This document shows positions 4,080 to 22,766 of a DNA stretch of 37,553 nt, one piece after another. The notes beneath the pieces are model-generated. The model had not been told where the DNA came from, searched no databases, and saw nothing but the letters and a program-made list of their open reading frames with translations. How positions within the stretch are numbered: the first letter of the stretch is position 1; every line of letters starts with the position of its first letter. The position numbers and the translations under genes were made by a program. Source of the stretch: Acidimicrobiales bacterium. GTDB taxonomy: Bacteria; Actinomycetota; Acidimicrobiia; Acidimicrobiales; MedAcidi-G1. The stretch covers positions 1-37,553 of the forward strand of contig JASLKB010000003.1 of the NCBI GenBank assembly GCA_030747775.1. Direction: 5' to 3'.

Positions 4080-4141
4080 CCGGCAGGTGAGAGCCCCGGC
4101 CGGAAACTGCCTACCGACAACGCGCTATCCTTTCACCCGAC

Positions 4142-4159
4142 ATTAGCCAATCGGCTAAT
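4142..4159. promoter_or_regulatory. Operator 1: palindrome TTAGCC-N4-GGCTAA before ferredoxin-P450
   Basis: Perfect inverted repeat with 7-base arms, ATTAGCC-AATC-GGCTAAT, 31 bases before the ferredoxin ATG. The same palindrome recurs at 8091, 12489 and 13277. It overlaps the region where promoter elements are expected, so repression by steric block is likely. The best candidate binders are the two TetR proteins encoded at 9380-10584 (inference). Confidence 0.75.
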
Positions 4160-4190
4160 AACTGGGGCCACGCAGGCTAGGGGAACGCTG

Positions 4191-4388
4191 ATGAAGATCA
4201 AGGTCGACGCTGAGAAGTGTGAGGGCCACAGCCGCTGTTACTCGTTGGCCCCGGAGCTGGTCGACGTGGACGACCTGGGCAACGCCTTCGAGTTGAACGA
4301 CGGCGAGGTGCCGACCGGTCTAGAGGACAAGGCCCGTCTCATCTTGGATAACTGCCCCGAGTACGCCATCACCATCGAGGAGGACTGA
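4191..4388 (+). CDS. Single-cluster ferredoxin, P450 redox partner ([3Fe-4S] type)
   Basis: A 65-residue acidic protein. Cluster ligands are Cys10, Cys16 and Cys55 (CEGHSRC ... NCPEYAI). The position of the second canonical Cys is His13, giving the CxxHxxC pattern of [3Fe-4S] or unusual [4Fe-4S] ferredoxins encoded beside actinobacterial P450s. It would pass single electrons to the P450 encoded 4 bases downstream. A ribosome site (AGGGGAA) precedes the ATG, and operator 1 lies 31 bases upstream. No ferredoxin reductase gene is in the window, so one must be supplied from elsewhere. Confidence 0.92.
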   Translation: MKIKVDAEKCEGHSRCYSLAPELVDVDDLGNAFELNDGEVPTGLEDKARLILDNCPEYAITIEED

Positions 4389-4392
4389 GCCG

Positions 4393-5646
4393 ATGACCGA
4401 TACGGCTGATACCCAGAACGACGCGGTGGCGAACTCTGTACCCGAGCGCTGCCCGGTCCACGACGTCACCACCGACTACGACATGTTCGACCCGGAATAC
4501 CTCCGGGATCCCTTCTCAGCCTGGGCCGAGATGCGCGACGGATGCCCCATCGCCCACACCGACCGATACGGCGGCTCGTGGCTGCCCACGAAGTACGACG
4601 ACCTCCAGGCTCTGGCCAAGATGGTCCCGGAGCTGTCGTCCAAGTCGCCCATCGTGATCGACCTGCCCGAAGCACTCGTAAAGGATGACGCCACCGGCTA
4701 CAACGCGGCATCTCCGATCAGTGCGGACCCGCCTGAGCAGAGCTGGACCCGCCGAGCCCTGCTCCCCCACTTCACCCCCAAGGGCATCGCCGCGGACCAC
4801 GAATACACCAAACGGCTCTGTCACGAGCTGATCGACGGCTTCATCGAGGACGGGAAGTGTGACGCGGCGGTCGACTATGCCCAGCAGATCCCACCCCGGG
4901 TCATCGCCAAGAAGCTCGGTGTGGACGAGAGCATGGTCGACGACTTCATCGAGTGGGTCCGCGGCGTACTCGAGCTAGGCCTCCAGCAGCCCGAGTTACG
5001 GGCGAAGTACCGCGACATCATCCGGGAGTACTTCGCCACCGAGGTGGCCGATCGCCGGGCCAACCCGAAGGACGACCTCATCACCGCCCTGTGCCAGACC
5101 GAACACGAGGGCGAACTACTGCCCGACGAGGTTGTCATCGGCATGTGCAACCTTCAGTTGGTGGCGGGCATCGACACCACCTGGTCGTCGATCGGGTCTG
5201 CGCTGTGGCACTTCGCCGGCCATGAGGACGACCGCCGTCTCATGGTCGCCGAGCCCGAACTCTGGGACACCGCAGTCGAGGAGCTCCTGCGCTTTTATGC
5301 CCCGGTCACCATGGCCCGCAACGCGGCCGAGGATGTCAAGTACGGCGGAGTGGAATTCAAGAAGGGAGACAAGATCCTCATGAACTTTCCAGGCGCAAAC
5401 CACGACCCTGACCACTTCGAAAACGCCCACGAGGTACAACTGGACCGCCAACGGAACCGGCACGTGGCTTTCGGCATCGGCATCCACCGCTGCGCTGGAT
5501 CCAACCTGGCCCGCATGGAGATGGAGGTGGCGCTCAAGACTTGGTTTGAGCGAATCCCCGAGTTCACGTTGTCCGATCCGGACGCTGTGACGTGGGCCGG
5601 AGGACAAGTAAGGGGACCCCGCATCGTCCCCGTCACCTTCGGCTGA
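4393..5646 (+). CDS. Cytochrome P450 monooxygenase
   Basis: Product of 417 residues, soluble bacterial class. The I-helix oxygen-activation motif AGIDTT is at 258-263, the K-helix ExxR at Glu297-Arg300, and the haem loop AFGIGIHRCAG places the thiolate ligand at Cys367. It is co-transcribed with the ferredoxin (4-base gap) under operator 1. The role is hydroxylation of an organic substrate in the cytoplasm with electrons from the ferredoxin. The CYP family cannot be fixed by eye. Co-regulation with acyl-CoA dehydrogenase, hydratase and alcohol dehydrogenase genes suggests it opens a catabolic pathway rather than a biosynthetic one (inference). It ends convergently with the sulfatase gene. Confidence 0.95.
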   Translation: MTDTADTQNDAVANSVPERCPVHDVTTDYDMFDPEYLRDPFSAWAEMRDGCPIAHTDRYGGSWLPTKYDDLQALAKMVPELSSKSPIVIDLPEALVKDDATGYNAASPISADPPEQSWTRRALLPHFTPKGIAADHEYTKRLCHELIDGFIEDGKCDAAVDYAQQIPPRVIAKKLGVDESMVDDFIEWVRGVLELGLQQPELRAKYRDIIREYFATEVADRRANPKDDLITALCQTEHEGELLPDEVVIGMCNLQLVAGIDTTWSSIGSALWHFAGHEDDRRLMVAEPELWDTAVEELLRFYAPVTMARNAAEDVKYGGVEFKKGDKILMNFPGANHDPDHFENAHEVQLDRQRNRHVAFGIGIHRCAGSNLARMEMEVALKTWFERIPEFTLSDPDAVTWAGGQVRGPRIVPVTFG

Positions 5647-5659
5647 ACCAGCTGAGCCG

Positions 5660-5675
5660 CCAATAGCCCTATTGG
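5660..5675. terminator. Hairpin between convergent P450 and sulfatase genes
   Basis: CCAATA-GCCC-TATTGG, a perfect 6-bp stem (7-bp with a 2-base loop), overlaps the sulfatase stop codon. It could serve as a bidirectional terminator; there is no T-tract. Confidence 0.5.
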
Positions 5676-8014
5676 GTGACCGCCTCAGCCCGAAGCATCC
5701 CGGCAGCGACCTGGGCTCGGGTCTCATCGTCGACCTCGTCAAGGAGTTCGACAGTCACGCCGTGGATAGTCGCCGTACACGCAAACCCATGCGGGTACGG
5801 CCCGACCGGTGACCGGGTGTCGACGCCGACGTCAAACGACTCGCCACCCATGGCGAACACCACCGGGACGGTCCGCTCCAACCTGGTCTGACCGACCACC
5901 CGACCGTCCACGGCCAGCGTGGCCACACCACCGGCACCGAAGCCCCCGTCGGAGTCGAACAGGACAGTGACCTGCCGGCGACCGGGAACCAGCGCCTCGC
6001 CGGCGGCCACCGTGGTCCGCTCATGACCGTAAAGGTTGTAGTGCCAGGTCGGTCGACCCTCGTCGAGGTAGATCGACCAACCGTTGAAGCTGCCACCGTG
6101 GCACACGATGACCCCTTCTGGCACCCTCTCGGTCGACACACCGGCCGGCCCCGCTGGCACATCGAGGTCACACGTAATCCGGTAAGAGCGGTTCTTGATG
6201 TTCAACACGGCCTGCTCTGGCATACGGACGTGAGCTGTGGTGTACGTCATCCGCCTCAATCCGGCCAGCGCTCTCGGCGCCCTGACCGCCGGATCCCGGT
6301 TACCGGCGTCCCGCAAGGGATACACGCCGTTGCGCAGGCATTCCTCGTGAAACAGGTCCTGCATCTCGGCCAGCAGCTCGGGACGCTCATCGGCTAGGTC
6401 GTGACTCTGGGAGAAGTCGTCACGCACGTCGTAGAGCTCCCATGACTCCTGCGGACCGTCGAACGGCGCTGAACCGAACCGGACCCAAGGGACCTTCCCG
6501 TGGAAACAGGAAGCCATGAACCCGTCGTGGTAGATGCCGCGGTTGCCCATCACCTCGAAGTACTGGGTGCGCCGGCCGTCAACCCCAGGATCGGTAAACG
6601 AGGCCAGCATCGACTGGCCCTCGACGGGCATCTGCTCGATGCCGTTCACCATGGCTGGGGCCTCAATGCCCGCCGCGGCGAGGATGGTGGGCGCCAGGTC
6701 GATGACATGGTGAAACTGGTCCCGGAGTCCACCAGCGTCGGTGATGTACCGGGGCCACGAAACAGCCAAGCCGTTGCGGGTCCCCCCGAAGTGCGAAGCC
6801 ACCTGCTTCATCCACTGGAACGGTGCGTCCAGGGCCCACGCCCACCCGACGTTGTAGTGGCACTCACTTCGGACAGTGCCGAAGTCGTCGATGTGTTCGA
6901 GCAGGAACTCGGGGTCCTCCTCCTGCCCATTCTGAAGCGCGGGTAGGGACCAGGTCCCGTGAATGCGACCCTCGGCTGACGCGCCGTTGTCACCGGTGAC
7001 GTAGATGAAGAGGGTGTCGTCCCACTCCCCCATGGCCTCGATGGCGTCGATGAGGCGGGCCACCTGAGCATCGGTATGGGCCAGGAAGGCCGCGAACACC
7101 TCCATCAGGCGACGGGCCACCGGCTTGTACCGGTCGGGGTAGTCGTCCCAGGACGGGATCTCGTCAGGTCGGGAAGTGTTCTCCGTGCCCGGCGGAATAA
7201 CCCCCATGGCCAACTGCCGCTCGAAGATCGACTGGCGCAGTTCATCCCAGCCGTCGTCGAAGAAGCCTCGGAAGCGATCCAGCCAGGCGTCGGGTACGTG
7301 CAGCGGCGTGTGGACGGCACCGGGAGCGAAGTAGCACAGAAACGGCTTGTCGGGTCGGTGGGCCTTGACCCTCTGCATCCACTCGATGGCCTTGTCGGCC
7401 ATGTCCTCAGTGAGGTGGTAGTCGTCCCGCCCCTCGAACGGAGCGACCGGTGTGGTCTGGTCGTAGAGGTCGGGCTCGAACTGCGAGGTCTCAGCGCCCG
7501 GGAACCCGTAGAAGCGGTCGAAGCCCAACCCGGTTGGCCAACGGTCGAACGGACCCGCCGGGCCCCTCTCCCAAGACGGGGTGAGGTGGCCCTTGCCAAA
7601 CATCCCTGTGGCGTAGCCGTTCTGGCGGAGTACCTCTGCCACCGTGGCCGCCTCCCGGGGGATGACCGAGTCGAAGGCCGGGTAGGAGGTCGCCGCCTCG
7701 GTGATATGACCCATGTGAACGGTGTGGTGGTTACGGCCGGTGAGCATCGCGGCCCGGGTGGGGGCGCAGATGGCCGTGGTGTGAAACCGGTTGAAACGCA
7801 GGCCGTCGGCAGCCACCCGCTCCAGGCCGGGAGCCGGGACCGGTCCGCCAAAAGCCGCGAACGACCCGAAGCCCACGTCGTCCAGGAGGACGATCACCAC
7901 GTTGGGCGCCCCCTCGGGAGCACCCTCCATCTCGAGGGCGACCGGCTGGCAGTCCTCGGACAGGCGACCAATGGTGCCGGTATACGGCTTAGTGGGGCGG
8001 GGAATGGCGGTCAT
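5669..8014 (-). CDS. Sulfatase, arylsulfatase family (formylglycine type)
   Basis: Product of 781 residues. The sulfatase signature CAPTRAAMLTGR holds Cys83, the residue converted to formylglycine. Metal ligands expected in the family are visible: LLDDVG (Asp45, Asp46) near the N-terminus and TGDNG (about Asp341-Asn342). A C-terminal extension beyond about residue 580 looks like the beta-rich tail of large arylsulfatases. No signal peptide is seen, so the enzyme is probably cytoplasmic. ATG at 8014 is preferred over GTG at 8032 because GGGAGG lies 10 bases before the ATG and overlaps the GTG version. It hydrolyses a sulfate ester of unknown identity. It is divergent from the acyl-CoA dehydrogenase gene and shares operator 2. 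A formylglycine-generating enzyme is needed but not encoded here. Confidence 0.92.
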   Translation of the reverse strand: MTAIPRPTKPYTGTIGRLSEDCQPVALEMEGAPEGAPNVVIVLLDDVGFGSFAAFGGPVPAPGLERVAADGLRFNRFHTTAICAPTRAAMLTGRNHHTVHMGHITEAATSYPAFDSVIPREAATVAEVLRQNGYATGMFGKGHLTPSWERGPAGPFDRWPTGLGFDRFYGFPGAETSQFEPDLYDQTTPVAPFEGRDDYHLTEDMADKAIEWMQRVKAHRPDKPFLCYFAPGAVHTPLHVPDAWLDRFRGFFDDGWDELRQSIFERQLAMGVIPPGTENTSRPDEIPSWDDYPDRYKPVARRLMEVFAAFLAHTDAQVARLIDAIEAMGEWDDTLFIYVTGDNGASAEGRIHGTWSLPALQNGQEEDPEFLLEHIDDFGTVRSECHYNVGWAWALDAPFQWMKQVASHFGGTRNGLAVSWPRYITDAGGLRDQFHHVIDLAPTILAAAGIEAPAMVNGIEQMPVEGQSMLASFTDPGVDGRRTQYFEVMGNRGIYHDGFMASCFHGKVPWVRFGSAPFDGPQESWELYDVRDDFSQSHDLADERPELLAEMQDLFHEECLRNGVYPLRDAGNRDPAVRAPRALAGLRRMTYTTAHVRMPEQAVLNIKNRSYRITCDLDVPAGPAGVSTERVPEGVIVCHGGSFNGWSIYLDEGRPTWHYNLYGHERTTVAAGEALVPGRRQVTVLFDSDGGFGAGGVATLAVDGRVVGQTRLERTVPVVFAMGGESFDVGVDTRSPVGPYPHGFACTATIHGVTVELLDEVDDETRAQVAAGMLRAEAVTQ

Positions 8015-8090
8015 CTGCAGTGATCCTCCCACTCGATCGACAACCTGCCGGTACCGGCTGACCCCACGAGCCGGAGCCGATACGATCCAC

Positions 8091-8110
8091 GGTTAGCCAT
8101 CTGGCTAACC
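8091..8110. promoter_or_regulatory. Operator 2: palindrome shared by sulfatase and acyl-CoA dehydrogenase
   Basis: GGTTAGCCATCTGGCTAACC: perfect 8-base arms, the strongest of the four copies. It ends 9 bases before the acyl-CoA dehydrogenase ATG; its right arm supplies TAACCT (8106-8111), a TANNNT-type -10 for a leaderless transcript. On the minus strand it lies 77 bases before the sulfatase ATG, over the -35 expected for a TATCGG box at 8078-8083. Confidence 0.8.
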
Positions 8111-8119
8111 TCTGTCCAC

Positions 8120-9334
8120 ATGGGCGACCACAGCGACGATCCCACCGCTGAGCCCGAACTCGCCGAGTTCAGATCGGAGGTGCGAGCCTTCGCCGAACGG
8201 CTCCCTGAGATCCTGGCCGATGCCAACAGCTCCATCGACCGGACCCGACGGTTCTTGGCCGCCCGCTACGACGCCGGACTGGGAGCCCTGGACTACCCGG
8301 AGGCCGACGGAGGACGCGACCTGGACCGCCATCATGTTCGTGCCTACCGGGAGGAGATTGCCGGCTCGGAGCTGGGTAACGCGGGCGCCGGATTCGGCAT
8401 CGGGATCGACATGTGCCTACCCACCATCCGCGACCACGGATCGGAGGACCTCCGCCGACGATTCCTCCGGCCTGGACTCCGGGGAGATGAGATCTGGTGC
8501 CAGCTGTACTCCGAGCCGGGGGCCGGCTCGGACCTGGCCGGCCTCACGACCCGAGCCGAGCGCGATGGTGACGAGTGGGTGGTGACCGGCCAGAAGGTCT
8601 GGACGTCGGGAGCCTCGGTTGCCGACCTCGGCATTGTCCTGGCCCGTACCAACTGGGACGTCCCCAAGCACGCCGGCATCTCGATGCTCGTGTTGCCCAT
8701 GGACCAGCCAGGAGTTGAGGTCCGACCCCTCCACCAGATGACCGGCGTTGCCCACTTCAACGAGGTGTTCCTCGACGGCGCCCGTGTGCCCTCCGACTGG
8801 GTCGTGGGAACTGAGGGTGACGGTTGGCGGATGGCTGTGGCCCTGCTGGCTCACGAGCGCTCATCAATCGGCCGTGGGGGCGGCCGCCAACCGGTCCCCG
8901 TGGACCGCCTGATGGAGCTCGCCAAATCCATCGGGCGGACCGATGATCCGCTGGTCAGGCAGGACTTGGCCCGACTCCACACCGGATCACAGATCGTCCA
9001 GTGGCTGAACGCCCGACCGGGCATCCACCCGTCCATCCCCAAACTCTGGCGGTCCCGACAGGGACGCAACGCTGCCGACGTGACCGCCCGTCTCGCTTTT
9101 CCCGGCGGCGTGGCGTGGCTAGGCGAACCAATGGGTACCACCGAACCGGATCGAGCAGTAGAACCCACGTACGACCACTGGGCCTACGGCATCTGCGACT
9201 CACGTGCCCTGTCACTGGGCGGCGGCACCGACGAGGTGCAGAGGAACACGCTTGGCGAACGGGTCCTGGGGCTGCCCCGAGAACCGGCTACCGACCGGGA
9301 CATCCCGTTCCGACTCGTCCCACGCAACGGGTGA
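8120..9334 (+). CDS. Acyl-CoA dehydrogenase family flavoprotein
   Basis: Product of 404 residues, normal length for an ACAD. Family marks: YSEPGAGSDLAGL and VTGQKVWTSGA in the FAD/substrate region, and the C-terminal GGGTDEVQRNTLGERVLGLP. It would oxidise an acyl-CoA to the enoyl-CoA and pass electrons to ETF. The residue just before the last Gly-Thr is Gly, not the catalytic Glu of medium-chain enzymes; Glu246 in LLAHERSS occupies the place used as base by isovaleryl-CoA-type enzymes. No ribosome site lies before the ATG, and operator 2 overlaps its -10. It is convergent with the TetR gene at 9380. The substrate is unknown; actinobacterial relatives include steroid and fatty-acid FadE proteins. 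Confidence 0.92.
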   Translation: MGDHSDDPTAEPELAEFRSEVRAFAERLPEILADANSSIDRTRRFLAARYDAGLGALDYPEADGGRDLDRHHVRAYREEIAGSELGNAGAGFGIGIDMCLPTIRDHGSEDLRRRFLRPGLRGDEIWCQLYSEPGAGSDLAGLTTRAERDGDEWVVTGQKVWTSGASVADLGIVLARTNWDVPKHAGISMLVLPMDQPGVEVRPLHQMTGVAHFNEVFLDGARVPSDWVVGTEGDGWRMAVALLAHERSSIGRGGGRQPVPVDRLMELAKSIGRTDDPLVRQDLARLHTGSQIVQWLNARPGIHPSIPKLWRSRQGRNAADVTARLAFPGGVAWLGEPMGTTEPDRAVEPTYDHWAYGICDSRALSLGGGTDEVQRNTLGERVLGLPREPATDRDIPFRLVPRNG

Positions 9335-9348
9335 GGTTCTCTCGAACA

Positions 9349-9389
9349 GGGCATGAGATTCCGGGAAGACCGTTGCCACTCATGTGCCC
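9349..9389. terminator. Weak inverted repeat between convergent genes
   Basis: GGGCATGAG and CTCATGTGCCC can pair with a 2-base bulge across a loop of about 20 bases, between the acyl-CoA dehydrogenase and the TetR stop. A terminator role is possible but weakly supported. Confidence 0.25.
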
Positions 9390-9994
9390 TCGGACTCCCG
9401 GATGCCGCGGGCGGCCTCACCAACATCGAGTCCCAGTAGGACGGCTCTGAGCACGAGCCGTAACCGGGCCTCCACCTCTTCGCGCTCGATGGAGTCGAGT
9501 CCCAGCCCACCGATCACCATCTCGGCGAACAGGCACCACCCCAGTTGAAACATGGTCGCCACAGCCACGTCCACTCGCGTTTCGTCGGTCGGCTCCTCGC
9601 CACAACCTCGACGATCGGCCACCTCTGCCAATGACGCCTCCACCACGGGGTGGATGGTCGACACCTCGCCCATCTCGCCAGCGATCGAGGCGAAGGCGAT
9701 GGCCCGGAGGTAGTCCGGCCGGTTCCGTATCGAGAACGGCTGGGACGGCCGCCAGTCCCCAGGTTTGCCATCGGCTCGCTCACCGAGCGCATACGAAGCC
9801 GCCATATGGGCAAGCCCCTCGGACAAGAGGGCACCCTTCCCCCCGAAGTAGTGGTGCACCAGGCCGTAGTTGACCCCCGCGCGTTCGGCTAGTTCACGAC
9901 CGGTAATCCGCTGCGGAGGCTTCTCCCCGAGGAGAGTCGACGCCGCATCGACCAGGGCGGCACGGACCTCGTCGGAACCCCGGGGCACGGTCAC
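9380..9994 (-). CDS. TetR-family transcriptional regulator (last gene of NMO operon)
   Basis: Product of 204 residues from GTG 9994, which overlaps the stop of the preceding TetR gene as GTGA. An upstream extension of the frame lies entirely inside that gene and is rejected. The helix-turn-helix is at about residues 29-50 (ITGRELAERAGVNYGLVHHY), followed by the all-helical ligand-binding and dimerisation part. The recognition helix nearly matches that of its neighbour (AGVNYGLVH in both). It is co-transcribed with NMO, ECH and the other TetR behind operator 3, so it is a good candidate repressor of the TTAGCC-N4-GGCTAA regulon, including its own operon. The ligand is unknown, probably a pathway intermediate such as a CoA ester (inference). 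Confidence 0.9.
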   Translation of the reverse strand: MTVPRGSDEVRAALVDAASTLLGEKPPQRITGRELAERAGVNYGLVHHYFGGKGALLSEGLAHMAASYALGERADGKPGDWRPSQPFSIRNRPDYLRAIAFASIAGEMGEVSTIHPVVEASLAEVADRRGCGEEPTDETRVDVAVATMFQLGWCLFAEMVIGGLGLDSIEREEVEARLRLVLRAVLLGLDVGEAARGIRESEGT

Positions 9995-10584
9995 GAGCCG
10001 TTTTCCCCCCCGTTGGGTTCTCCGGACCGGAGCCCGACCGACCCCTCCAGAGCGGCGACCAACTCCTCGACTCGCGAACGGGCCATCGGAAGGTCCGCGG
10101 ACGACAGGCCGACGGTGGTCACGTTGGCCGGACCGAAGATGGGCCACCCCAGTTCCAGGGCGAACAACGCGGCGATGGTCGTCCAGTGGTGTACTGGATC
10201 CCCGTCGGGGTCGGAGGCGTCGACGAGGTCGCGGTAGGCGTCGAGCACCCGGCGGCGATCTCCGTCACCGGTGGCTTCCAACGGGTCGAGGGCCATGTGG
10301 CCGGCGACGGCCCACAGCGTCCGGTCCTCGGCTGTGGCCCGCACCGAAACGGGGCGTGTTCCACCCTCCATCTCCGTGTCCACCAGCCAGTCGAGGTGCT
10401 GACGCCATGCCATGTCGAGCAGACGGTTCTTGGATCCGAAGTGGTAATGGACGAGCCCGTAGTTCACGCCCGCCTCCTCGGCGATCTCACGACCCGAGAT
10501 GGCCGAGGGTGGACGATCGTCCAGCAGACGTAGTGCGGCGTCCAGGAGTTCACCGCGCGCCGCGCCGCGAGGGGCGACGGTCAC
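9991..10584 (-). CDS. TetR-family transcriptional regulator, paralogue of its neighbour
   Basis: Product of 197 residues from GTG 10584, overlapping the hydratase stop as GTGA. The HTH is at about 29-50 (SGREIAEEAGVNYGLVHYHF). The start (VTVAPRG) and HTH closely resemble those of the next gene (VTVPRGS), but the ligand domains diverge, for example TTIAALFALELGWPIFGPAN here versus TMFQLGWCLFAEM there. This indicates an old tandem duplication. Two repressors with near-identical reading heads may bind the same operator as homodimers or as a heterodimer and sense different ligands (inference). Confidence 0.9.
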   Translation of the reverse strand: MTVAPRGAARGELLDAALRLLDDRPPSAISGREIAEEAGVNYGLVHYHFGSKNRLLDMAWRQHLDWLVDTEMEGGTRPVSVRATAEDRTLWAVAGHMALDPLEATGDGDRRRVLDAYRDLVDASDPDGDPVHHWTTIAALFALELGWPIFGPANVTTVGLSSADLPMARSRVEELVAALEGSVGLRSGEPNGGENGS

Positions 10585-11363
10585 CGGTCGATTCCCTCCC
10601 CGTCCACGTGGATCGGGCGCATCGCACCTCCGGTAGGCAGGGGCGTCGAAGCCCGCGCCCGATCGAACCATGCCCGGCCGCCCATCGGATCCGATACAGG
10701 ACCCCCACCAGCGCCCAGGTCCCGGATCGCCCCCTTGAGGTTTCGCACGTTGGCCGACGGCCACGCGGCAAGGTCGGCAGCCAGGGCCATCGCCGACTCC
10801 CTCACCTCGGCATCGGCCACGACGTCAAGTGCCACCCCCAAACGATGTAGGTCCGGACCGTTGAACCGGCGACCAGTCAGGACCAGTTGAGAGGCCACCG
10901 ACACCGGATACCGGGCCAGGAGCCAGGCCAGGTTCATCGGTGCAGCCATCCCCTGACGGATCTCACCCACCTGGATGAACGACGTCTCCCCAACTACCAA
11001 CAGATCACAGGCCAGGGCGAATGCCGCCCCACCGTTGACAGCAAACCGCTCGAGGGCACCCACGACGGGAACCGGACAATCAAAGATCGCCAGGTGGGCG
11101 GCGACCAACGACTCTGTGGCCGTGGACATCCATAGCGGTGGCGGATCGGCGTTGTACTCGACGAGGTCGAGACCGGAACAGAAGCCGCCACCGGCACCCG
11201 ATAACAGGACGACGTTCACCTCCTCACAGGCCGATACCGCACGAAAGGCGTCGGCCAGCCCGTCAGCCAGCGGACCGGTGATGGCGTTCTTGCGGTGGGG
11301 TCGGTTCAGGGTGATCGAGGCCACTCCATCCTCCACCGACACGAGCACCTCCTCATTGCTCAT
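10581..11363 (-). CDS. Enoyl-CoA hydratase/isomerase (crotonase) family protein
   Basis: Product of 260 residues, usual crotonase length. The oxyanion-hole segments are GGGFCSGLDL (58-67) and NGGAAFALACDLLV (110-123); a Glu suitable as catalytic base is Glu134 in IQVGEIRQGMAAP. It should act on an enoyl-CoA or related thioester made by the co-regulated acyl-CoA dehydrogenase. ATG at 11363 overlaps the NMO stop as ATGA, and its own stop overlaps the TetR start as GTGA, so translation of the four genes is probably coupled. Crotonases also include ring-opening hydrolases and isomerases, so the exact reaction is open. Confidence 0.88.
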   Translation of the reverse strand: MSNEEVLVSVEDGVASITLNRPHRKNAITGPLADGLADAFRAVSACEEVNVVLLSGAGGGFCSGLDLVEYNADPPPLWMSTATESLVAAHLAIFDCPVPVVGALERFAVNGGAAFALACDLLVVGETSFIQVGEIRQGMAAPMNLAWLLARYPVSVASQLVLTGRRFNGPDLHRLGVALDVVADAEVRESAMALAADLAAWPSANVRNLKGAIRDLGAGGGPVSDPMGGRAWFDRARASTPLPTGGAMRPIHVDGEGIDR

Positions 11364-12460
11364 GTCCGACCAGCCCGGGAGCCGTCGACGTCTAGATCGG
11401 CCAGCACCCCCTCGACCTCACTAACCAGTCCGTCCATGATCTCGGCCACCGTCTGCTGGCCGGCCAGGTGGACCACGCCCTGACCCGCCCCCTCGTGAAC
11501 CAGGGGCGCCACATCATGCCGCATCACCTGACCCAAGAGGTCGCCAATCAGAATGTCCTGGTGGGGCATCTTCAGAGGCTCCGGTGCACCGGCGGCCGAC
11601 CACTCATCACTCCAGGCCGAACGCAACATGCGCAAGGTCTTCCCGCTCACCGACCGGCTGACCACCGTGTCGGTCGCGTCGGCGGCCAACAACTTCTCCA
11701 ACAGCACCGGTGACGGGGCCGCCTCCACCGAAGCGAGGAAGGCCGTACCCACCCACACCCCGTCAGCTCCGAGGGCCATGGCCGCCGCAATATGCCGGCC
11801 GGTGGCCACCCCACCAGCGGCCAGGACCGGTCGCCCGCCCGCCGCCTCGACGACCAGCGGGACGAGGGTAAAGGTGCCGATCGGCCCAGTGTGACCGCCC
11901 GAGTCGGTCCCCTGGGCCACCAGGATGTCGGCACCGGCCCGGATAGCCGTCTCGGCATGGGCCGGCCGACCCACCAAGCTGACAATTAGAGACCCCTGAT
12001 CGTGGGCCTGTTCGACAGCCCAAGTCGGCGACCCGACACCCAAAGCCAGAACCGGGATCCGATGGTCCATGGCAACGGCCAGCTGGTCGCGGGCGGTCTC
12101 CTCACTACGGACGAACCGGGACCGCATGCCGGGCAGCCCGTCATCGGGTACCCCATAGCGCTGGCGCATCGACGACACGAACTCGACGTGTTCCGGTGGC
12201 AGGGTCGACTCGATAGCCGACCGATCGTCACGCTCGGGCATTCCCGCCGGGATGACCAGATCCACACCCCATGGGAGGTCCCCGAGTTCGGCCTTCATCC
12301 GGCTGACCCCGGCCTCGATCTCGTCGGGGGTCTGACGTGTACAGCCCCAGATCCCGACGCCACCGGAGCGCGACACGGCGATCGCCACGTCAATCGACGA
12401 CCCGAAGCCGAAGCCGAAAATCGAGTGGGAACACCCCAGCAGGTCCTGCACTCGGCCCAT
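11360..12460 (-). CDS. Nitronate monooxygenase (2-nitropropane dioxygenase) family flavoprotein
   Basis: Product of 366 residues with the FMN-binding TIM-barrel of the NMO family: AQGTDSGGHTG (182-192) and VLAAGGVATGRH are the phosphate-loop and flavin motifs. The N-terminus (FGFGFGSSIDVAIAVSRSGG) departs from the usual PxxxAPM opening, so this is a divergent subgroup. Members include nitronate oxidases but also enoyl-thioester reductases; M. tuberculosis IpdC, in the TetR-controlled KstR2 steroid regulon, belongs to the wider family. With hydratase and acyl-CoA dehydrogenase beside it, a role on a CoA ester is as likely as nitronate oxidation (inference). It is first in a four-gene overlapping operon. 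TAGATT lies 6 bases before the ATG (leaderless) and operator 3 lies just upstream. Confidence 0.85.
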   Translation of the reverse strand: MGRVQDLLGCSHSIFGFGFGSSIDVAIAVSRSGGVGIWGCTRQTPDEIEAGVSRMKAELGDLPWGVDLVIPAGMPERDDRSAIESTLPPEHVEFVSSMRQRYGVPDDGLPGMRSRFVRSEETARDQLAVAMDHRIPVLALGVGSPTWAVEQAHDQGSLIVSLVGRPAHAETAIRAGADILVAQGTDSGGHTGPIGTFTLVPLVVEAAGGRPVLAAGGVATGRHIAAAMALGADGVWVGTAFLASVEAAPSPVLLEKLLAADATDTVVSRSVSGKTLRMLRSAWSDEWSAAGAPEPLKMPHQDILIGDLLGQVMRHDVAPLVHEGAGQGVVHLAGQQTVAEIMDGLVSEVEGVLADLDVDGSRAGRT

Positions 12461-12466
12461 CGAACG

Positions 12467-12504
12467 AATCTAGCCGTCGGCCGAGAAGTTGGCCATATGG
12501 CTAA
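12467..12504 (-). promoter_or_regulatory. Operator 3 (12489-12504) and leaderless promoter of the NMO-ECH-TetR-TetR operon
   Basis: TTGGCC-ATAT-GGCTAA, one mismatch from the palindrome of the other three sites, centred about 36 bases before the NMO ATG. On the minus strand a TAGATT -10 (plus-strand 12467-12472) ends 6 bases before the ATG, and the -35 position expected at 17 bases spacing (12490-12495) falls inside the operator. This places the TetR genes under their own probable operator. Confidence 0.65.
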
Positions 12505-12530
12505 AGATGCGGTCACCACTCAACGAACAA

Positions 12531-13247
12531 CTAGGTGAGCGACTCCACCACCACCGCCAAACCCCCTAGGCCAGATAGGCACAACAGGACCGGCCGGAAC
12601 CATGTGGCATCCACCCAACGACGGACCGGCGGGGCGAGTGTGAGGCCGATGAGCGTCGAACCACACACCAGCGCCGTGCGACCCAGGTCGCCAGCCCGGA
12701 CGTCACCCGCCGAGAACATCACGCCGAGGATCACCCCGGCGTTCACCATGTTCAGCGCCGACATGTTCGGACGGATCATCGACGGCGGCTGGTCGTGGTT
12801 CAGAATCATGAAGGCCGGACCGGGGAGGGCCGCCACCCTCGTCCCGAAGGCCACTAGGAGGCCGCAGATCGGATCGGTCCAGCGTCCGCGCGGCGGTGAT
12901 GCCCCCACGGCGACCAGGACCACAGCCACTACCACCAGAAGGCCCACCGCCAACTTCAGGTCCTGGTCCGAGAAGGTGGAAGCTGAGATCTGTCCGGCCA
13001 CCACGCCGATCGGCATGCCCAGAAGGCACCGGCCGAGGACGCCCCGATCCACGCCATGCCACTCGCGGACCAGATGGCGGGTCCCCACGAGGAGCCCACC
13101 GACCATGAGGGGAAGGGGCATGAAGTCCGGGTCGACGGCTACCAGTGCCGGGCCGGCGATCAGCGCGATGCCGAACCCCGCGGCTGCCTGGGCCAGGGAG
13201 CCGGCGACCACGGCGACCACGACCACCAGAACCTCCAGCCAGCCCAC
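12531..13247 (-). CDS. TauE/SafE family anion permease (sulfite exporter type)
   Basis: A very hydrophobic protein of 238 residues with about seven or eight membrane segments and the family's opening LAQAAAGFGIALIAGPALV. TauE/SafE proteins move sulfite, sulfoacetate or other small organic anions across the cytoplasmic membrane. GTG at 13247 is chosen: TATGGT (13254-13259 on the plus strand) lies 6 bases before it as a leaderless -10, and the nearby ATG at 13258 is out of frame. The -35 position expected at 17 bases spacing (13277-13282) coincides with operator 4, shared with the divergent alcohol dehydrogenase. Co-regulation with a sulfatase hints at export of a sulfur anion or carboxylate product, or uptake of substrate (inference). 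Confidence 0.87.
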   Translation of the reverse strand: MGWLEVLVVVVAVVAGSLAQAAAGFGIALIAGPALVAVDPDFMPLPLMVGGLLVGTRHLVREWHGVDRGVLGRCLLGMPIGVVAGQISASTFSDQDLKLAVGLLVVVAVVLVAVGASPPRGRWTDPICGLLVAFGTRVAALPGPAFMILNHDQPPSMIRPNMSALNMVNAGVILGVMFSAGDVRAGDLGRTALVCGSTLIGLTLAPPVRRWVDATWFRPVLLCLSGLGGLAVVVESLT

Positions 13248-13276
13248 CGGGCGACCATACCCGGCCCGATTCAGCG

Positions 13277-13294
13277 GTTAGCCGGACGGCTAAC
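13277..13294. promoter_or_regulatory. Operator 4: palindrome shared by TauE/SafE and alcohol dehydrogenase
   Basis: GTTAGCC-GGAC-GGCTAAC, perfect 7-base arms, 29 bases before the permease start and 42 before the dehydrogenase start. The right arm contributes TAACGT (13291-13296), a possible -10 for the dehydrogenase promoter. Confidence 0.78.
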
Positions 13295-13336
13295 GTCGGC
13301 GGTCCACGGCCCATGTCCACCCGAAGGGAGACCCTC

Positions 13337-14428
13337 ATGCGAGCAGCCGTCCTACACGAAGCCCCCGGTGACCTCGTCGTCGAGGACCTGACAGTCGCTG
13401 AACCAGTCGGACGGGAAGTACTGATCCGCACGAAGGCGTCGGGTCTCTGCCACAGCGACCTCCACGTCATCGAAGGCCTCCTGCCCCTGCCGTCGCTGCC
13501 CGCGGCACTCGGCCACGAGGCCTCGGGCATCGTGGAGGCCGTTGGACCCGACGTCACGGCGTTCGCCCCCGGCGACCACGTCATCACCTGCCTGACCCAG
13601 TTCTGCGGAGTGTGTCCCGAATGCCATGCCGGCCGGGTGTTCATCTGCCCGAACCGTCACGGTTTGGCCCGGGGACCAGAGTTGCCTCCGACCCTCTCGC
13701 TTGGAGACACCCCGGTGCTGCCCATGACCGGGCTCGGTGCGTTCGCCGAGCAGATGCTGGTGCACGAGAACGGAGTGGTAGCTATCGACCACTCCGTACC
13801 CTTCGACGTTGCCGCCCTCATCGGGTGTGCGGTCATGACCGGGGTGGGCTCGGCCGTAAACGGCGCCCGCATCCGGCCCGGAGAAACAGTCGCCGTCATC
13901 GGCTGCGGTGGCATCGGCCTCAACATCGTGCAGGGATGTCGCCTGGCCGGAGCCGGACGGATCATCGCCGTGGACCTCAACGCCGAGAAGCTAGATGCGG
14001 CTCGCGGCTTTGGCGCCACCGACGTGATCGACGCCTCGGCGGACGACCCGGTAGCCGCCGTGCACGCCCTGACCGGAGGCGGCGTGGACGCCGCCTTCGA
14101 GGCCATCGGGCTCACGACCACCGCTGATCAGGCATTGGCCATGATCCGACCGGGACGCACCGCCTACCTCGTCGGCGTGCCTCCGATCGATAGTGCCATG
14201 TCGGTTCCAGGTGCCTTCATGGTCCTCCAGGCCAAGGGACTTCAGGGACTGTTCATGGGCAACTCCAACTTCAAGGTGGAAATGCCCAACCTGGCCCGCC
14301 ACTATCTGGAGGGCCGCCTGGAACTGGACCGACTTGTCTCGGCCCACATCACCCTCGACGAGGTCAACGAGGGCTACGCCGAGTTGAAGGCTGGCGCAAC
14401 CCTGCGCTCGGTCATCATGTTCGACTGA
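13337..14428 (+). CDS. Zinc-dependent alcohol dehydrogenase (MDR superfamily, class III-like)
   Basis: Product of 363 residues. Catalytic zinc ligands Cys38 (GLCHSD), His60-Glu61 (GHEASG) and Cys164 (IGCAVMTG); structural zinc Cys90, Cys93, Cys96 and Cys104 in the CxxCxxCx7C spacing. The coenzyme loop GCGGIG is at 189-194, and Asp213 in AVDLN indicates NAD(H) rather than NADP(H). It resembles the long-chain class III and NDMA-dependent group of Actinomycetota. ATG 13337 is preceded by GAAGGGAGA; the upstream open frame overlaps operator 4 and the permease start and is not coding. It probably oxidises the alcohol made by the P450 or released by the sulfatase (inference). Confidence 0.93.
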   Translation: MRAAVLHEAPGDLVVEDLTVAEPVGREVLIRTKASGLCHSDLHVIEGLLPLPSLPAALGHEASGIVEAVGPDVTAFAPGDHVITCLTQFCGVCPECHAGRVFICPNRHGLARGPELPPTLSLGDTPVLPMTGLGAFAEQMLVHENGVVAIDHSVPFDVAALIGCAVMTGVGSAVNGARIRPGETVAVIGCGGIGLNIVQGCRLAGAGRIIAVDLNAEKLDAARGFGATDVIDASADDPVAAVHALTGGGVDAAFEAIGLTTTADQALAMIRPGRTAYLVGVPPIDSAMSVPGAFMVLQAKGLQGLFMGNSNFKVEMPNLARHYLEGRLELDRLVSAHITLDEVNEGYAELKAGATLRSVIMFD

Positions 14429-14450: not shown

Positions 14451-15182
14451 TCAGCGCCCGGTGCCGAAGTCGGACAACGACCCAAGCAGGGTGGCCAGTC
14501 GGTCGATGACCAGATCGGCCTCGTCTCCAGGCTCGTTGTCGTCCAGTGCACCGCGGAACCGCACGGTGCCCATGCCCATGGCCCGGGCCCCAGCTACATC
14601 AGTCCGCTTCAAGTCGCCCACGTGGACCACGGTGGAAGGATCGTCTATGTCGAGGCCCTCGAGGACTGCTCGGAAGATGGCTGGGTTCGGCTTGTAGACG
14701 CCCACCTCGTCCGAAAATGCGGCGAAGGTCACGTGTTTGAGGATCCCATGCTCTTTGAGATACGTCCTGAGGTGCCGTCCTACCGCCAGGTTCGTGTCGG
14801 AAACGATCCCGACGGCGACACCAGCCCCCGCCACGGCGGACACGACGTCCGCCGCATCGAGCACGGGTATCACCTCCAAGCAGTAGGAGGCCCGGTCGAA
14901 TGCATCGGCAAGCGCCTCCCGATCCCCACCGTCGATCCGGTCACCAAAGGCGGCGAAACACTCCGCGAGCGCCCGGTCCGGCCCATAGTGCCTACCCGCC
15001 CTCCACTCGGTCTCGAAGCGATCAGGAAGGATCGACAGGACGCCCCACAGGAGATCCTCTGGCACGGCGATATTCCGCGCTTCGATGACCTCCTGCCAGG
15101 ACCGGCGTCGGATCTCCAGGCCTCCGGGGACGCTAGTGAGGAGGGTGTTCCAAAGGTCGAAGGTGACGGCGCGGATCGACAC
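14451..15182 (-). CDS. HAD-superfamily hydrolase
   Basis: Product of 243 residues from GTG 15182. HAD motifs in order: I, FDLWNTL near residue 8 (nucleophile Asp with Asn and Thr); II, VSDTN; III, Lys in KPNPAIF; IV, VGDLKRTDVAGA. A helical cap lies between motifs I and II (C1 type), as in phosphoglycolate phosphatase and haloacid dehalogenase relatives. Substrate unknown. It lies 38 bases behind the malic enzyme gene and is probably read through from it. It has no TTAGCC operator, which separates it from the catabolic island it faces. Confidence 0.85.
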   Translation of the reverse strand: MSIRAVTFDLWNTLLTSVPGGLEIRRRSWQEVIEARNIAVPEDLLWGVLSILPDRFETEWRAGRHYGPDRALAECFAAFGDRIDGGDREALADAFDRASYCLEVIPVLDAADVVSAVAGAGVAVGIVSDTNLAVGRHLRTYLKEHGILKHVTFAAFSDEVGVYKPNPAIFRAVLEGLDIDDPSTVVHVGDLKRTDVAGARAMGMGTVRFRGALDDNEPGDEADLVIDRLATLLGSLSDFGTGR

Positions 15183-15220
15183 GATCCTGGTACCGATCCA
15201 ATCCCGGAGTAGCGGCCGGA

Positions 15221-16624
15221 TCAGGCCCGGCAGATGCCGTCGGCAACTGCAGCCGCTGCGACCGCCTCGGCCACCCGATACGGAACCGATTTGTCAAACA
15301 CCGATGGCACAACAAACGATGGCTGGAGGTCGGTCGGCAGTACCGAATCGGCGATTGCCTCCGCCGCCGCCAACTTCATGTTCTCGGTCACGTCAGTGGC
15401 CCCGGCATCTAGGGCGCCCCTGAAGATCCCCGGAAAGGCCAGGACGTTGTTGATCTGGTTCGGATAGTCGCTACGCCCGGTAGCCATAACCGCGGCAAGT
15501 CCGTCGGCCTCCTCCGGGCGGATCTCCGGCTCCGGATTAGCCATGGCGAACACGATCGGCTCAGGATTCATGGTGCGCAGATCAGCAGCATCGATCAAGC
15601 CTGGGCCACTCAGACCCACGAACACGTCGGTGCCGGCCAGTACGTCCTGCAGAGTGCCCATCTTTCGATCTGGATTGGTGTGCTCGGCGAACCACTCCTT
15701 GGCCATGTTCAGGTTCTCGCGCCCCGTGTAAACCGCACCGGCACGGTCCACGCCGACGATCTCACCTACCCCCGCATCCAAAAGGATCCGACCCACGGCC
15801 ACGCCAGCGGCTCCCATTCCGGCGATCACCACTGACAGGTCGCCGATTTCGCGTCCAGTCAGGCGACAGGCGTTCCATAGAGCAGCCAAAGTGACCACGG
15901 CAGTGCCGTGCTGGTCGTCGTGGAACACCGGAATGTCCAGTGCCTCGCGAAGGGCTTGCTCAACCTCGAAGGCAGCGGGCGCCGCGATGTCCTCCAGGTT
16001 GATCCCGCCGAAAGTGGGGGCGAGACGGATCACGGTGTCGATGATCTCCTGCGGATCGGTGACGTCCAAGCAGATCGGGAAGGCGTCAACGCCGGCGAAC
16101 TCCTTGAATAGGAGGGCCTTGCCCTCCATCACCGGCATGGCGGCCGCCGGTCCGATATCCCCTAGGCCCAGCACCGCGGTGCCGTCGGTGACGACGGCCA
16201 CCGTGTTCTTCTTGATAGTCAGGTCGTGAGCACGTCCTGGCTCCTCGTGGATGGCCATGCAGATCCGGGCCACCCCCGGCGTGTACGCCATTGACAGGTC
16301 ATGCCGGTCGTTGACCTCGGCGAGGGAGACCACCTCGATCTTGCCGCCCTCGTGCATGTCGAAGGTCCGGTCGTGCCAGTGGAGGATCTCCACCCCGTCC
16401 TGGTCCTCGATGGCACTGACTACGGCTGCCGCGTGGTCCTCGTCGCGGCAGTTGACCACCACATCGTTAACCAACAAGTCACCCCGGACGTCGAAGCCGC
16501 CCATCGACATGATGTTGGCGCCCGCCTCGCCGATGGCCGTGGCTAGGCGGCCCAAGGTGTTGGGCACGTTGTCCAACGCCACCTGAAGGTGGATCGAATA
16601 GGCCGCGGTGGGGAGGAATGGCAT
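15221..16624 (-). CDS. Malic enzyme with N-terminal ACT domain
   Basis: Product of 467 residues. Residues 8-80 form an ACT regulatory domain (IHLQVALDNVPNTLGRLATA). The malic-enzyme body follows: AYTPGVA (113-119), LGDIG (154-158), FHDDQHGTA (234-242) and the dinucleotide loop GMGAAG (269-274). It decarboxylates L-malate to pyruvate with NAD(P)+ and a divalent metal in the cytoplasm. ACT domains bind amino acids or other small ligands, so allosteric control is likely (inference). It starts its own unit: TAGGCT lies 6 bases before the ATG with no ribosome site. It is followed by the HAD gene. Confidence 0.93.
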   Translation of the reverse strand: MPFLPTAAYSIHLQVALDNVPNTLGRLATAIGEAGANIMSMGGFDVRGDLLVNDVVVNCRDEDHAAAVVSAIEDQDGVEILHWHDRTFDMHEGGKIEVVSLAEVNDRHDLSMAYTPGVARICMAIHEEPGRAHDLTIKKNTVAVVTDGTAVLGLGDIGPAAAMPVMEGKALLFKEFAGVDAFPICLDVTDPQEIIDTVIRLAPTFGGINLEDIAAPAAFEVEQALREALDIPVFHDDQHGTAVVTLAALWNACRLTGREIGDLSVVIAGMGAAGVAVGRILLDAGVGEIVGVDRAGAVYTGRENLNMAKEWFAEHTNPDRKMGTLQDVLAGTDVFVGLSGPGLIDAADLRTMNPEPIVFAMANPEPEIRPEEADGLAAVMATGRSDYPNQINNVLAFPGIFRGALDAGATDVTENMKLAAAEAIADSVLPTDLQPSFVVPSVFDKSVPYRVAEAVAAAAVADGICRA

Positions 16625-16630
16625 CGTCCG

Positions 16631-16636
16631 AGCCTA
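16631..16636 (-). promoter_or_regulatory. -10 box of the malic enzyme gene
   Basis: TAGGCT on the minus strand, 6 bases from the ATG; this matches the leaderless spacing seen at several other unit starts in the window. Confidence 0.4.
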
Positions 16637-16701
16637 GGAGTGACATGCCGGAACACCCCGATCGAAGCCAGTAGTCCTGCCACGGGCCGGGCTGGACCGA
16701 G

Positions 16702-17286
16702 TCAGGGACCCTCGTAGGGGAAGCCCAGGTCGGGAGCCGTGACCAGGGGCCGGAACTCGATCCCCTCCTCGCCGGCCGCCGCACCACACGTGCCGCCCCG
16801 GTCCACGATGGGGAGTACAGCCACCGCCTCAGCACCCAGCGCACGCACCACTGAGGCCGCCTCTAACGGCGAGGTCCCCCGAGTGACCGTGTCCTCGGTG
16901 ATGACCACCCGGTCACCGGGGAGAAGGGCGCCGGCGAGGCGGCCCCCCACACCGTGGTCCTTGGACTCCTTGCGGATGCTGAACGACCGGAGGAACCGGC
17001 CACGGCTAGCTGCCACCGCGGCAATGCCAAAAGCTACCGGGTCAGCTCCCGCCGTTAGCCCGCCGATGGCGGTGATCGGACCAACCCCCTCGTTGGCCGC
17101 CGCGGCATCCAGCGCCTCGATCTCCACCAGCGCGGCGTCGGCCACCAACAGAATCCCCTCAGCCCGGCACGCCGTCTGCTTGGCGTCGCAGAACCAGGTG
17201 CTCTTTCGACCCGACTTGAGAGTGAAGTCCCCGGTCCTGATGGAGTGCTCCAGCAGGTGGGCGATTAGGGCGTCCCTGGTGCTCAC
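16702..17286 (-). CDS. pyrE: Orotate phosphoribosyltransferase
   Basis: Product of 194 residues. It joins orotate to PRPP to give OMP in pyrimidine synthesis. The PRPP-binding motif is VVITEDTVTRGTS (about 126-138), and the flexible catalytic loop with Lys is RKESKDHGVGG. The N-terminal LKSGRKSTWFCDAK segment also fits OPRTase. GTG at 17286 overlaps the purM stop as GTGA, so this pyrimidine gene is translated with the purine genes purL-purF-purM. PRPP is used by both pathways, which may explain the pairing. Confidence 0.93.
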   Translation of the reverse strand: MSTRDALIAHLLEHSIRTGDFTLKSGRKSTWFCDAKQTACRAEGILLVADAALVEIEALDAAAANEGVGPITAIGGLTAGADPVAFGIAAVAASRGRFLRSFSIRKESKDHGVGGRLAGALLPGDRVVITEDTVTRGTSPLEAASVVRALGAEAVAVLPIVDRGGTCGAAAGEEGIEFRPLVTAPDLGFPYEGP

Positions 17287-18341
17287 GGTTCCATCCTGAC
17301 CTGACCGGATCCGGTCACCAACTCGCCGATCACCCGGGCCGACCGATCGTGGGCAGCCAAGGTGGCCACCACACCATCTACGTCGATGCCAGGCACGACC
17401 AGCACCATTCCCAGCCCCATGTTGAACACCCGGTCCATCTCGTTATCGGACACGTCGCCCATGGCCTGTAGCTCCCGGAAGATCCGCGGCACCTCCCACG
17501 TTGAACGCCTGACCACCGCGTCCAACTTGTCGTCCATGACCCGCGACAGGTTGCCGGGCAGGCCTCCACCGGTCACGTGGGCCACGGCGTGGACCTCATG
17601 GTCGGCCAAGGCGGCCACCACGGCCGGGGCGTAGATCACGCTGGGTGCCAGCAGTTCGTCTGTCAGGGTGGTCCCGGCCCCGTCCCATGCCGGGTCGTTC
17701 AGGTCGCGACCGGCCACGTCGAAGACGAGGCGACGGGCCAGAGAGAAGCCGTTGGAACGGAGGTTGGGCGACTCGATCCCGACCAGCACGTCACCGACAA
17801 CCGCCGCGCTGCCGTCCAGGACTGCATCGCGTTCGACTGCCCCCACAGCGAAGCCCACCAGATCGAACTGGTCGGTAGCCATAACCCCGGGATGCTCGGC
17901 CATCTCGCCCCCAATGAGGGCGCACTCCGCTTCGGCGCACCCCGCGGCGATGCCCGACACCAGCCCCTCCACGGCATCCGGGTCCAGCCGACCGACAGCG
18001 AGGTAGTCCAGGAAGAAGAGCGGTGCCGCACCCGCACACACCAGGTCGTCCACACACATGGCCACAAGGTCTCGTCCGATGGTGTCCAGCCGGCCGGTCT
18101 GACGGGCGATCTCGGCCTTGGTGCCCACCCCATCGGTGGCCGAAACCAGCAGGGGGTCCCGGTAGCCGGACCGGCCAATGTCGAACAAGCCGCCAAATCC
18201 CCCGATGTCACCGATGACCTCCGGCCGGTAGGTGCCGCGCACCAACGGACCGATCCGGCGCACCGCTTCTTCGCCTGCATCCAGGTCGACCCCAGCTGCC
18301 CGGTAGCTCTCGCTCGACCCGCCCTCCCCCACCGACGTCAC
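17283..18341 (-). CDS. purM: Phosphoribosylformylglycinamidine cyclo-ligase (AIR synthetase)
   Basis: Product of 352 residues, normal length. It closes FGAM to AIR with ATP. Family motifs: SATDGVGTKAEIA, GEMAEHPGVM, and GGGLPGNLSRV near the C-terminal half. GTG at 18341 overlaps the purF stop (GTGA) and its own stop overlaps pyrE (GTGA). Confidence 0.96.
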   Translation of the reverse strand: MTSVGEGGSSESYRAAGVDLDAGEEAVRRIGPLVRGTYRPEVIGDIGGFGGLFDIGRSGYRDPLLVSATDGVGTKAEIARQTGRLDTIGRDLVAMCVDDLVCAGAAPLFFLDYLAVGRLDPDAVEGLVSGIAAGCAEAECALIGGEMAEHPGVMATDQFDLVGFAVGAVERDAVLDGSAAVVGDVLVGIESPNLRSNGFSLARRLVFDVAGRDLNDPAWDGAGTTLTDELLAPSVIYAPAVVAALADHEVHAVAHVTGGGLPGNLSRVMDDKLDAVVRRSTWEVPRIFRELQAMGDVSDNEMDRVFNMGLGMVLVVPGIDVDGVVATLAAHDRSARVIGELVTGSGQVRMEP

Positions 18342-22113: not shown

Positions 22114-22212
22114 CGTAGTCCCCGACGACAGCCCGTCAGGCAACCTCCCAAATGCCCGCAGATGAGTTCAGCAGGGCCTCCTATACCGCATTGTTAGAAC
22201 CTGATTTGACCC

Positions 22213-22240
22213 AAAAAAAACTACGAATCTGTATACGTAG
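22213..22240 (-). terminator. Terminator-like hairpin with T8 on the minus strand, upstream of purL
   Basis: On the minus strand CTACG-(10)-CGTAG is followed directly by eight T (plus-strand A 22213-22220). It is positioned to stop transcripts coming from purQ before they enter purL, or to attenuate a purL leader. The stem is only 5 bp, so it may be weak. Confidence 0.45.
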
Positions 22241-22273
22241 ATCCCTGTATAAACCGCAGTAATGCTGAACCCA

Positions 22274-22302
22274 TTGAGGGACGATGTAATAATTAATAGG
22301 AT
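22274..22302 (+). promoter_or_regulatory. Sigma70-type promoter of the small gene at 22365
   Basis: TTGAGG (22274-22279) and TAGGAT (22297-22302), exactly 17 bases apart, within an AT-rich island that stands out from the GC-rich surroundings. A start point near 22309 would give a leader of about 55 bases with the ribosome site AGAGG before ATG 22365. Confidence 0.65.
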
Positions 22303-22364
22303 CGTTCTGGAACCTTCCCTATCTAATCGACCACTTGAGGGAAACCAAGAAAGAGGTACGTGCG

Positions 22365-22751: not shown

Positions 22752-22766
22752 CCCCGAGAGCCAGCC

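Follow-up and report, generated by a model that had tools for sequence, protein, structure and literature searches.

The window analysed here, a stretch of 37,553 nucleotides from an Acidimicrobiales bacterium, carries a 10.3-kb island of catabolic genes that includes two adjacent regulator genes of the TetR type, TetR1 and TetR2, and four copies of a palindrome, TTAGCC-N4-GGCTAA. The island begins on the plus strand with a small ferredoxin of 65 amino acids (4191–4388), recognised from its sequence (C-x2-H-x2-C...CP, a type found beside actinobacterial P450s) and without a match in the NCBIfam search, and continues with a cytochrome P450 (4393–5646) whose nearest solved relatives are P450cin, the closest of them, CYP107 and CYP125. 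A type I sulfatase of 781 amino acids with a CAPTR active-site motif (5669–8014, minus strand; nearest solved relative a Pseudomonas arylsulfatase) is divergent from an acyl-CoA dehydrogenase (ACAD; 8120–9334, plus). There follows, on the minus strand, an operon read in the order nitronate monooxygenase/FabK-like flavoenzyme (NMO; 11360–12460), enoyl-CoA hydratase/isomerase (ECH; 10581–11363), TetR2 (197 amino acids, 9991–10584) and TetR1 (204 amino acids, 9380–9994). A TauE/SafE anion exporter (12531–13247, minus), with a GTG start 7 nt past a putative -10 element, and a divergent zinc alcohol dehydrogenase (ADH; 13337–14428, plus) complete the set. The enzyme, exporter and regulator genes were assigned by Pfam/NCBIfam. 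Both regulators carry the TetR_N helix-turn-helix domain (Pfam PF00440, E 2e-10 and 3e-12), and their recognition helices read VNYGLVHHYFG in TetR1 and VNYGLVHYHFG in TetR2. The structural model of TetR1 has a predicted TetR fold (predicted local distance difference test score, pLDDT, 88) and its top PDB matches are TetR regulators, for example 5wm9_B (Z 12.6, 168 residues aligned, root-mean-square deviation 3.2); the model of TetR2 is weaker (pLDDT 73).

A pattern scan of the window found the palindrome exactly at 4143–4158 (Operator 1, centre AATC, 32 bp ahead of the ferredoxin and present in relatives as well), at 8093–8108 (Operator 2, centre ATCT, between sulfatase and ACAD) and at 13278–13293 (Operator 4, centre GGAC, between TauE/SafE and ADH), and with one mismatch, TTGGCC-ATAT-GGCTAA, at 12489–12504 (Operator 3, ahead of NMO-ECH-TetR2-TetR1). 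All four copies are intergenic and one stands ahead of each transcription unit of the island, just as an earlier, sequence-only reading of this DNA had described. That reading had seen no further full copy in the window, and indeed the nine remaining matches all have three mismatches, where 4.4 are expected by chance at up to three mismatches, and are noise. The genome-wide scan that it had proposed as a check shows that the motif is not scattered: in the source genome (2,257,090 bases, 92% complete), the only matches with up to one mismatch are these four, whereas the motif read backwards has eight. With a background rate of 0.016 exact sites per Mb, taken from 101 order-level genomes, the island holds three exact copies against 1.6e-4 expected (Poisson p about 7e-13). 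The arms are constant and the centres differ, as had been noted, but the centres are not free, since R-N-N-Y holds in 4/4 window copies and in all 51 sites from window and relatives. From these 51 sites, the operator consensus is refined to TTAGCC-R-NN-Y-GGCTAA.

The motif was placed relative to putative promoters, whose -10 and -35 elements and start sites were assigned from consensus and conservation. The putative -10 of the ferredoxin promoter (TATCCT, 4126–4131) is 11 bp upstream of Operator 1, so that the operator would cover the start-site region. The final TAA of Operator 2 opens a putative ACAD -10 (TAACCT, 8106–8111) with the ATG 8 bp further on, and this transcript is probably leaderless. 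Operator 3 overlaps the -35 region of NMO, whose putative -10 (TAGATT, 12467–12472, minus) lies downstream of it, while Operator 4 overlaps both the ADH -10 (TAACGT, 13291–13296) and the -35 region of TauE, with its -10 TATGGT at 13254–13259 (minus). Across the sites compared, a putative TANNNT -10 takes its opening half from the right arm's TAA in 10/10 ADH, 10/10 ECH and most ACAD promoters, and TauE promoters have their -10 (TATGGT/TAGGGT) 18–20 bp past the site and the start codon 6–8 nt later. Since all these positions would let a bound protein block RNA polymerase, repression is the natural reading. Pairs of weaker operators spaced by 22 bp were also observed at a transporter or CoA-transferase promoter (L088 13244–13281; L091 12709–12746); this spacing of two helical turns suggests cooperative binding by two repressor units.

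Comparison among genomes ties the motif to the TetR pair. An exact copy occurs in 25 of the 149 genomes searched, mostly from the genus and family of the window, and is present in 16/16 genomes with TetR1 vs 9/133 without it (Fisher p = 1.7e-15). Although the surrounding DNA varies, the motif keeps its syntenic placement in 30 mapped neighbourhoods, before the ferredoxin, ACAD/sulfatase, NMO or ECH, and TauE/ADH; counted by promoter, a site is found in 12 genomes at the ferredoxin, 13 at ACAD and 10 each at TauE, ADH and ECH. The motif is hence conserved ahead of orthologues in genus and family, the second check that had been proposed. Conversely, three close relatives (sulfatase 95–96% identical) and genome G011 keep the ferredoxin, P450 and sulfatase and lack the TetR pair, and in the regions checked of these four genomes no site within two mismatches was found, barring a two-mismatch remnant before the ferredoxin in G011. 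The sulfatase tree provides five independent contrasts of TetR presence and absence, in which the site goes with TetR four times and never against it, the fifth contrast (G012) showing no change; five contrasts are too few for a sign test to reach 0.05.

The two regulators look like a single unit. TetR1 and TetR2 fall into distinct clades of the tree, yet they occur together, adjacent and in the same order in 15/15 genomes, the lone exception (G028) being cut by a contig end, and in the window the end of TetR2 overlaps the start of TetR1 by 4 bp. Furthermore, in a second family of the order the two are replaced by a single protein of 386–396 amino acids with two TetR domains (genomes G105, G145, G506–G510 and G492; the gene is truncated in G494). 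In most cases the neighbours of the fused gene are two P450s (one of them 60–62% identical), TauD, an alkylsulfatase of type III, a homologue of the type I sulfatase, and ATP-binding cassette (ABC) transporter genes, including that for the SBP_bac_5 transporter protein. An operator of the asymmetric form YTAGCC-RNNY-GGCTGC occurs at the start codon of the fused gene itself and before SBP_bac_5, the operators of G492 reading TTAGCC-ATAT-GGCTAC and CTAGCC-GTTT-GGCTTC; the asymmetric pattern is found in 7/9 genomes with the fused TetR vs 3/30 others of the second family (p = 2e-4). A homologue of this SBP_bac_5 in the genus of the window (G013, 69% identical) stands behind two operator copies 22 bp apart. 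With SBP_bac_5 behind the operator in both families, the regulon is common to both. In the fused family, the start codon of the repressor lies inside the operator, directly past a TANNNT -10 (TAGATT, TAGCTT; L151 9308–9323, L228 7139–7154, L230 8716–8731), which suggests leaderless, autoregulated expression of this gene.

The recognition helices allow the halves of the fused protein to be compared with the separate regulators. A helix NYGLxHHYFG is common to TetR1 and the C-unit of most fused proteins. Most TetR2 proteins have NYGLVHY[HY]F and go with the arm TTAGCC, the fused N-unit has NYAQIHRHFG or SYGQIHRLFG and goes with GNAGCC, and the Arg of HRHFGSK in the N-unit aligns with Arg53 of Mce3R, a double TetR repressor of Mycobacterium tuberculosis. 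The altered operator arm, with its outer G, may be matched to this Arg in the recognition helix, which we regard as a lead and not as proof, because the protein variants number two, the independent sites are few and the arm doubles as coding sequence at the promoter of the fused gene. A class-wide search for fused proteins, with thin sampling, revealed nothing beyond scattered distant double TetRs. Two more distant genomes carry a tandem or double TetR (L162, about 9800–10870, minus; L163, 9335–10441, plus), one of them beside alkylsulfatases; an operator of the TTAGCC type was not found at these two loci.

Altogether, by sequence comparison this is a real and well-conserved TetR operator and regulon, and synteny, co-occurrence and co-loss with the TetR pair support the earlier suggestion of one TetR-controlled catabolic pathway. 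We judge it highly probable that the local TetR pair has this motif as its operator. The sequence-only reading had treated the two TetRs as alternatives, but the pair looks like one functional unit. From the constant pairing and the fused form elsewhere we infer that TetR2 and TetR1 act as a heterodimer, an interpretation we favour by a narrow margin of belief. As for the fuller proposal of an obligate heterodimer, a split double-TetR that reads a symmetric operator where the fused form reads an asymmetric one, its changed arm matched to the Arg helix, we consider the chances evenly balanced.

Several observations weigh against this overall reading. Other pathway genes, too, have been lost from the genomes without TetR, whose intergenic DNA aligns poorly; co-loss thus supports the link to TetR without isolating it, and is no clean point-mutation test. 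Genome G012 retains a perfect site, although it has no relative of TetR1 at E 1e-4 and none of TetR2 at E 1e-15. Some units are siteless in some genomes, such as the ferredoxin unit of G007, and the NMO/ECH site shifts or is missing. An equal-armed palindrome is equally expected of homodimers, and the tree allows both a descent of TetR2/TetR1 and the fused N/C units from one ancestral pair and other correspondences (support 79/74; alternatives p-AU 0.38). At the G012 locus itself (L090 7629–9782), the TetR genes are gone from between ECH and ACAD with the perfect operator kept; a recent loss of TetR is possible.

As a rule, a TetR repressor binds its palindrome as a homodimer. The foremost alternative is that two separate homodimeric TetRs share one operator, as redundant repressors or as sensors with different inducers. 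Their nearly identical recognition helices and the identical arms in the genus of the window would fit, and AvaR1 and AvaR2 of Streptomyces, whether as homodimers or as a heterodimer, compete for shared sites (PMC5744401). Yet redundant repressors are expected to disappear one by one, while TetR1 and TetR2 genes are never single, and the related family has a fused chain together with an asymmetric operator; we regard separate homodimers as rather unlikely, though the strongest of the rival readings. It is more doubtful still that the palindrome is read by one TetR only, with the partner as auxiliary sensor or as regulator of something else. Such a division of labour is suggested by the residues after the recognition helix, where TetR1 keeps the canonical G-x-K (HHYFGGK or HHYFGSK) and TetR2 in most genomes lacks it (HYYFESA, HYYFDS), but the NYGL recognition residues of TetR2 are conserved in nearly all sequences and a second palindrome tied to the locus was not noticed. 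We see very little chance that a global regulator owns the motif, with its clustering here a coincidence: the site retained in TetR-less G012 would be in line with it, but the source genome has no other copies, and the sporadic copies elsewhere (G031, G041, G043, G067, G098, G128 and G138) have no regulon genes near and lie mostly inside coding sequence, both copies of G098 being a repeat within one open reading frame of 5,824 aa and the intergenic copy of G138 occurring in a genome whose best related TetR is no better than E 3e-9. Finally, the idea that the palindromes act as hairpins in RNA, as leader or terminator-like elements, draws on their being perfect inverted repeats close to gene starts and was rejected as scarcely credible, since 30 de-duplicated sites show no consistent flank symmetry past the arms, many sites are at or ahead of the putative transcription start, the arm sequence is fixed beyond mere pairing, and a T-run is absent.

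The pair was also compared with known systems. KstR and KstR2, regulators of cholesterol catabolism, likewise head actinobacterial TetR regulons with P450, ACAD and ECH genes. Their consensus operators, TnnAACnnGTTnnA and AnCAAGnnCTTGnT, do not match TTAGCC-RNNY-GGCTAA, so that the distinction drawn by the sequence-only reading holds, and the island has sulfatase and TauE and is without the mce4/ring-degradation genes. In a phmmer search of TetR1 against PDB sequences at E 1e-4, KstR and KstR2 were not listed, and KstR is a weak fold match of the TetR1 model. Text searches of the open-licence literature for TTAGCC/GGCTAA returned largely unrelated work, in which no TetR operator matched. BkaR of mycobacteria, a single TetR of an acyl-CoA pathway, also reads a 16-bp palindrome with a 4-bp centre, GTTA-N-T-N4-A-N-TAAC (PMC3920632); this operator differs too, having no GCC/GGC inner block and its arms one base nearer the centre, and the sites of the island do not conform to its consensus.

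Closer in architecture is Mce3R, an autoregulated repressor of lipid/steroid-type catabolism whose two TetR units function as a single asymmetric repressor. It binds a 25-bp non-palindromic site, requires for binding its Arg53, which enters the major groove, and was reported in 2024 to be the first double-TetR whose structure was solved (PMC11667970). Its two-TetR layout recurs in the fused proteins of the second family, whereas the family of the window uses two genes and a short, perfectly palindromic operator centred on 4 bp; a search of solved structures gave no sequence match to Mce3R. With two separate genes, the pair of the window is not classed as a double-TetR protein, its operator arms being equal and fused form and asymmetry occurring in the other family only, but it may function like one. 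The AvaR1/AvaR2 and ScbR/ScbR2 pairs of Streptomyces form heterodimers of paralogous TetRs, AvaR1/AvaR2 responding to butenolide (PMC5744401), and are comparable as paralogues able to pair and share operators. These also work as homodimers; the present pair stands out by its constant adjacency, its gene overlap in the window and its fused counterpart.

The earlier description of the regulon as self-contained is true of the source genome and fails for the relatives, where an Opp-type ABC transporter, a CoA transferase and extra P450s join. The islands combine sulfatase of type I, alkylsulfatase of type III and TauD, whose fold is shared by the alkylsulfatase AtsK, with TauE/SafE, P450, CoA transferase and acyl-CoA enzymes. 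This set makes a sulfate ester the somewhat favoured candidate for the substrate, and a terpenoid- or alkyl-like carbon skeleton is plausible given P450cin as the nearest solved relative of the P450. Beyond the island (14451–23444), the window encodes a HAD hydrolase, a malic enzyme with an ACT-like domain and a purine-synthesis cluster (AIRS, amidophosphoribosyltransferase-like, FGAR-AT, GATase).

Comparison establishes the motif, where it sits at promoters, and that it is linked to, and lost along with, the TetR pair; binding, repression, heterodimer, inducer and substrate are what we infer. We propose that, when substrate is absent, TetR2-TetR1 would occupy all four sites and so obstruct RNA polymerase, over the -10 (ACAD, ADH), over the -35 (TauE, NMO) or just past the -10 (ferredoxin-P450), silencing the entire pathway and, by autoregulation, its own NMO-ECH-TetR2-TetR1 operon. 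Most likely the two TetRs would form one heterodimer with one arm per subunit; in the sister family the pair is one fused polypeptide, with an asymmetric operator. Release would come from an intermediate of the pathway, with an acyl-CoA or the de-sulfated/hydroxylated substrate as the probable candidates. The pathway itself would most likely run from uptake of a sulfate ester through the sulfatase and oxidation by P450/ADH into a CoA-dependent, beta-oxidation-like route (ACAD, ECH), with TauE/SafE exporting the sulfur anion.

In summary, our analysis describes a probable paired repressor that appears in uncultured Acidimicrobiales in split and fused forms, with symmetric and asymmetric operators to match. 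The motif is a precise marker by which a regulon, probably for the catabolism of sulfate esters, can be annotated in uncultured marine actinobacteria; their marine origin we take from isolate names. With the split and fused pair, short proteins and short DNA would suffice to test half-site recognition and obligate heterodimerisation. If true, the system would represent a natural experiment on how the two subunits of a TetR dimer share out an operator.

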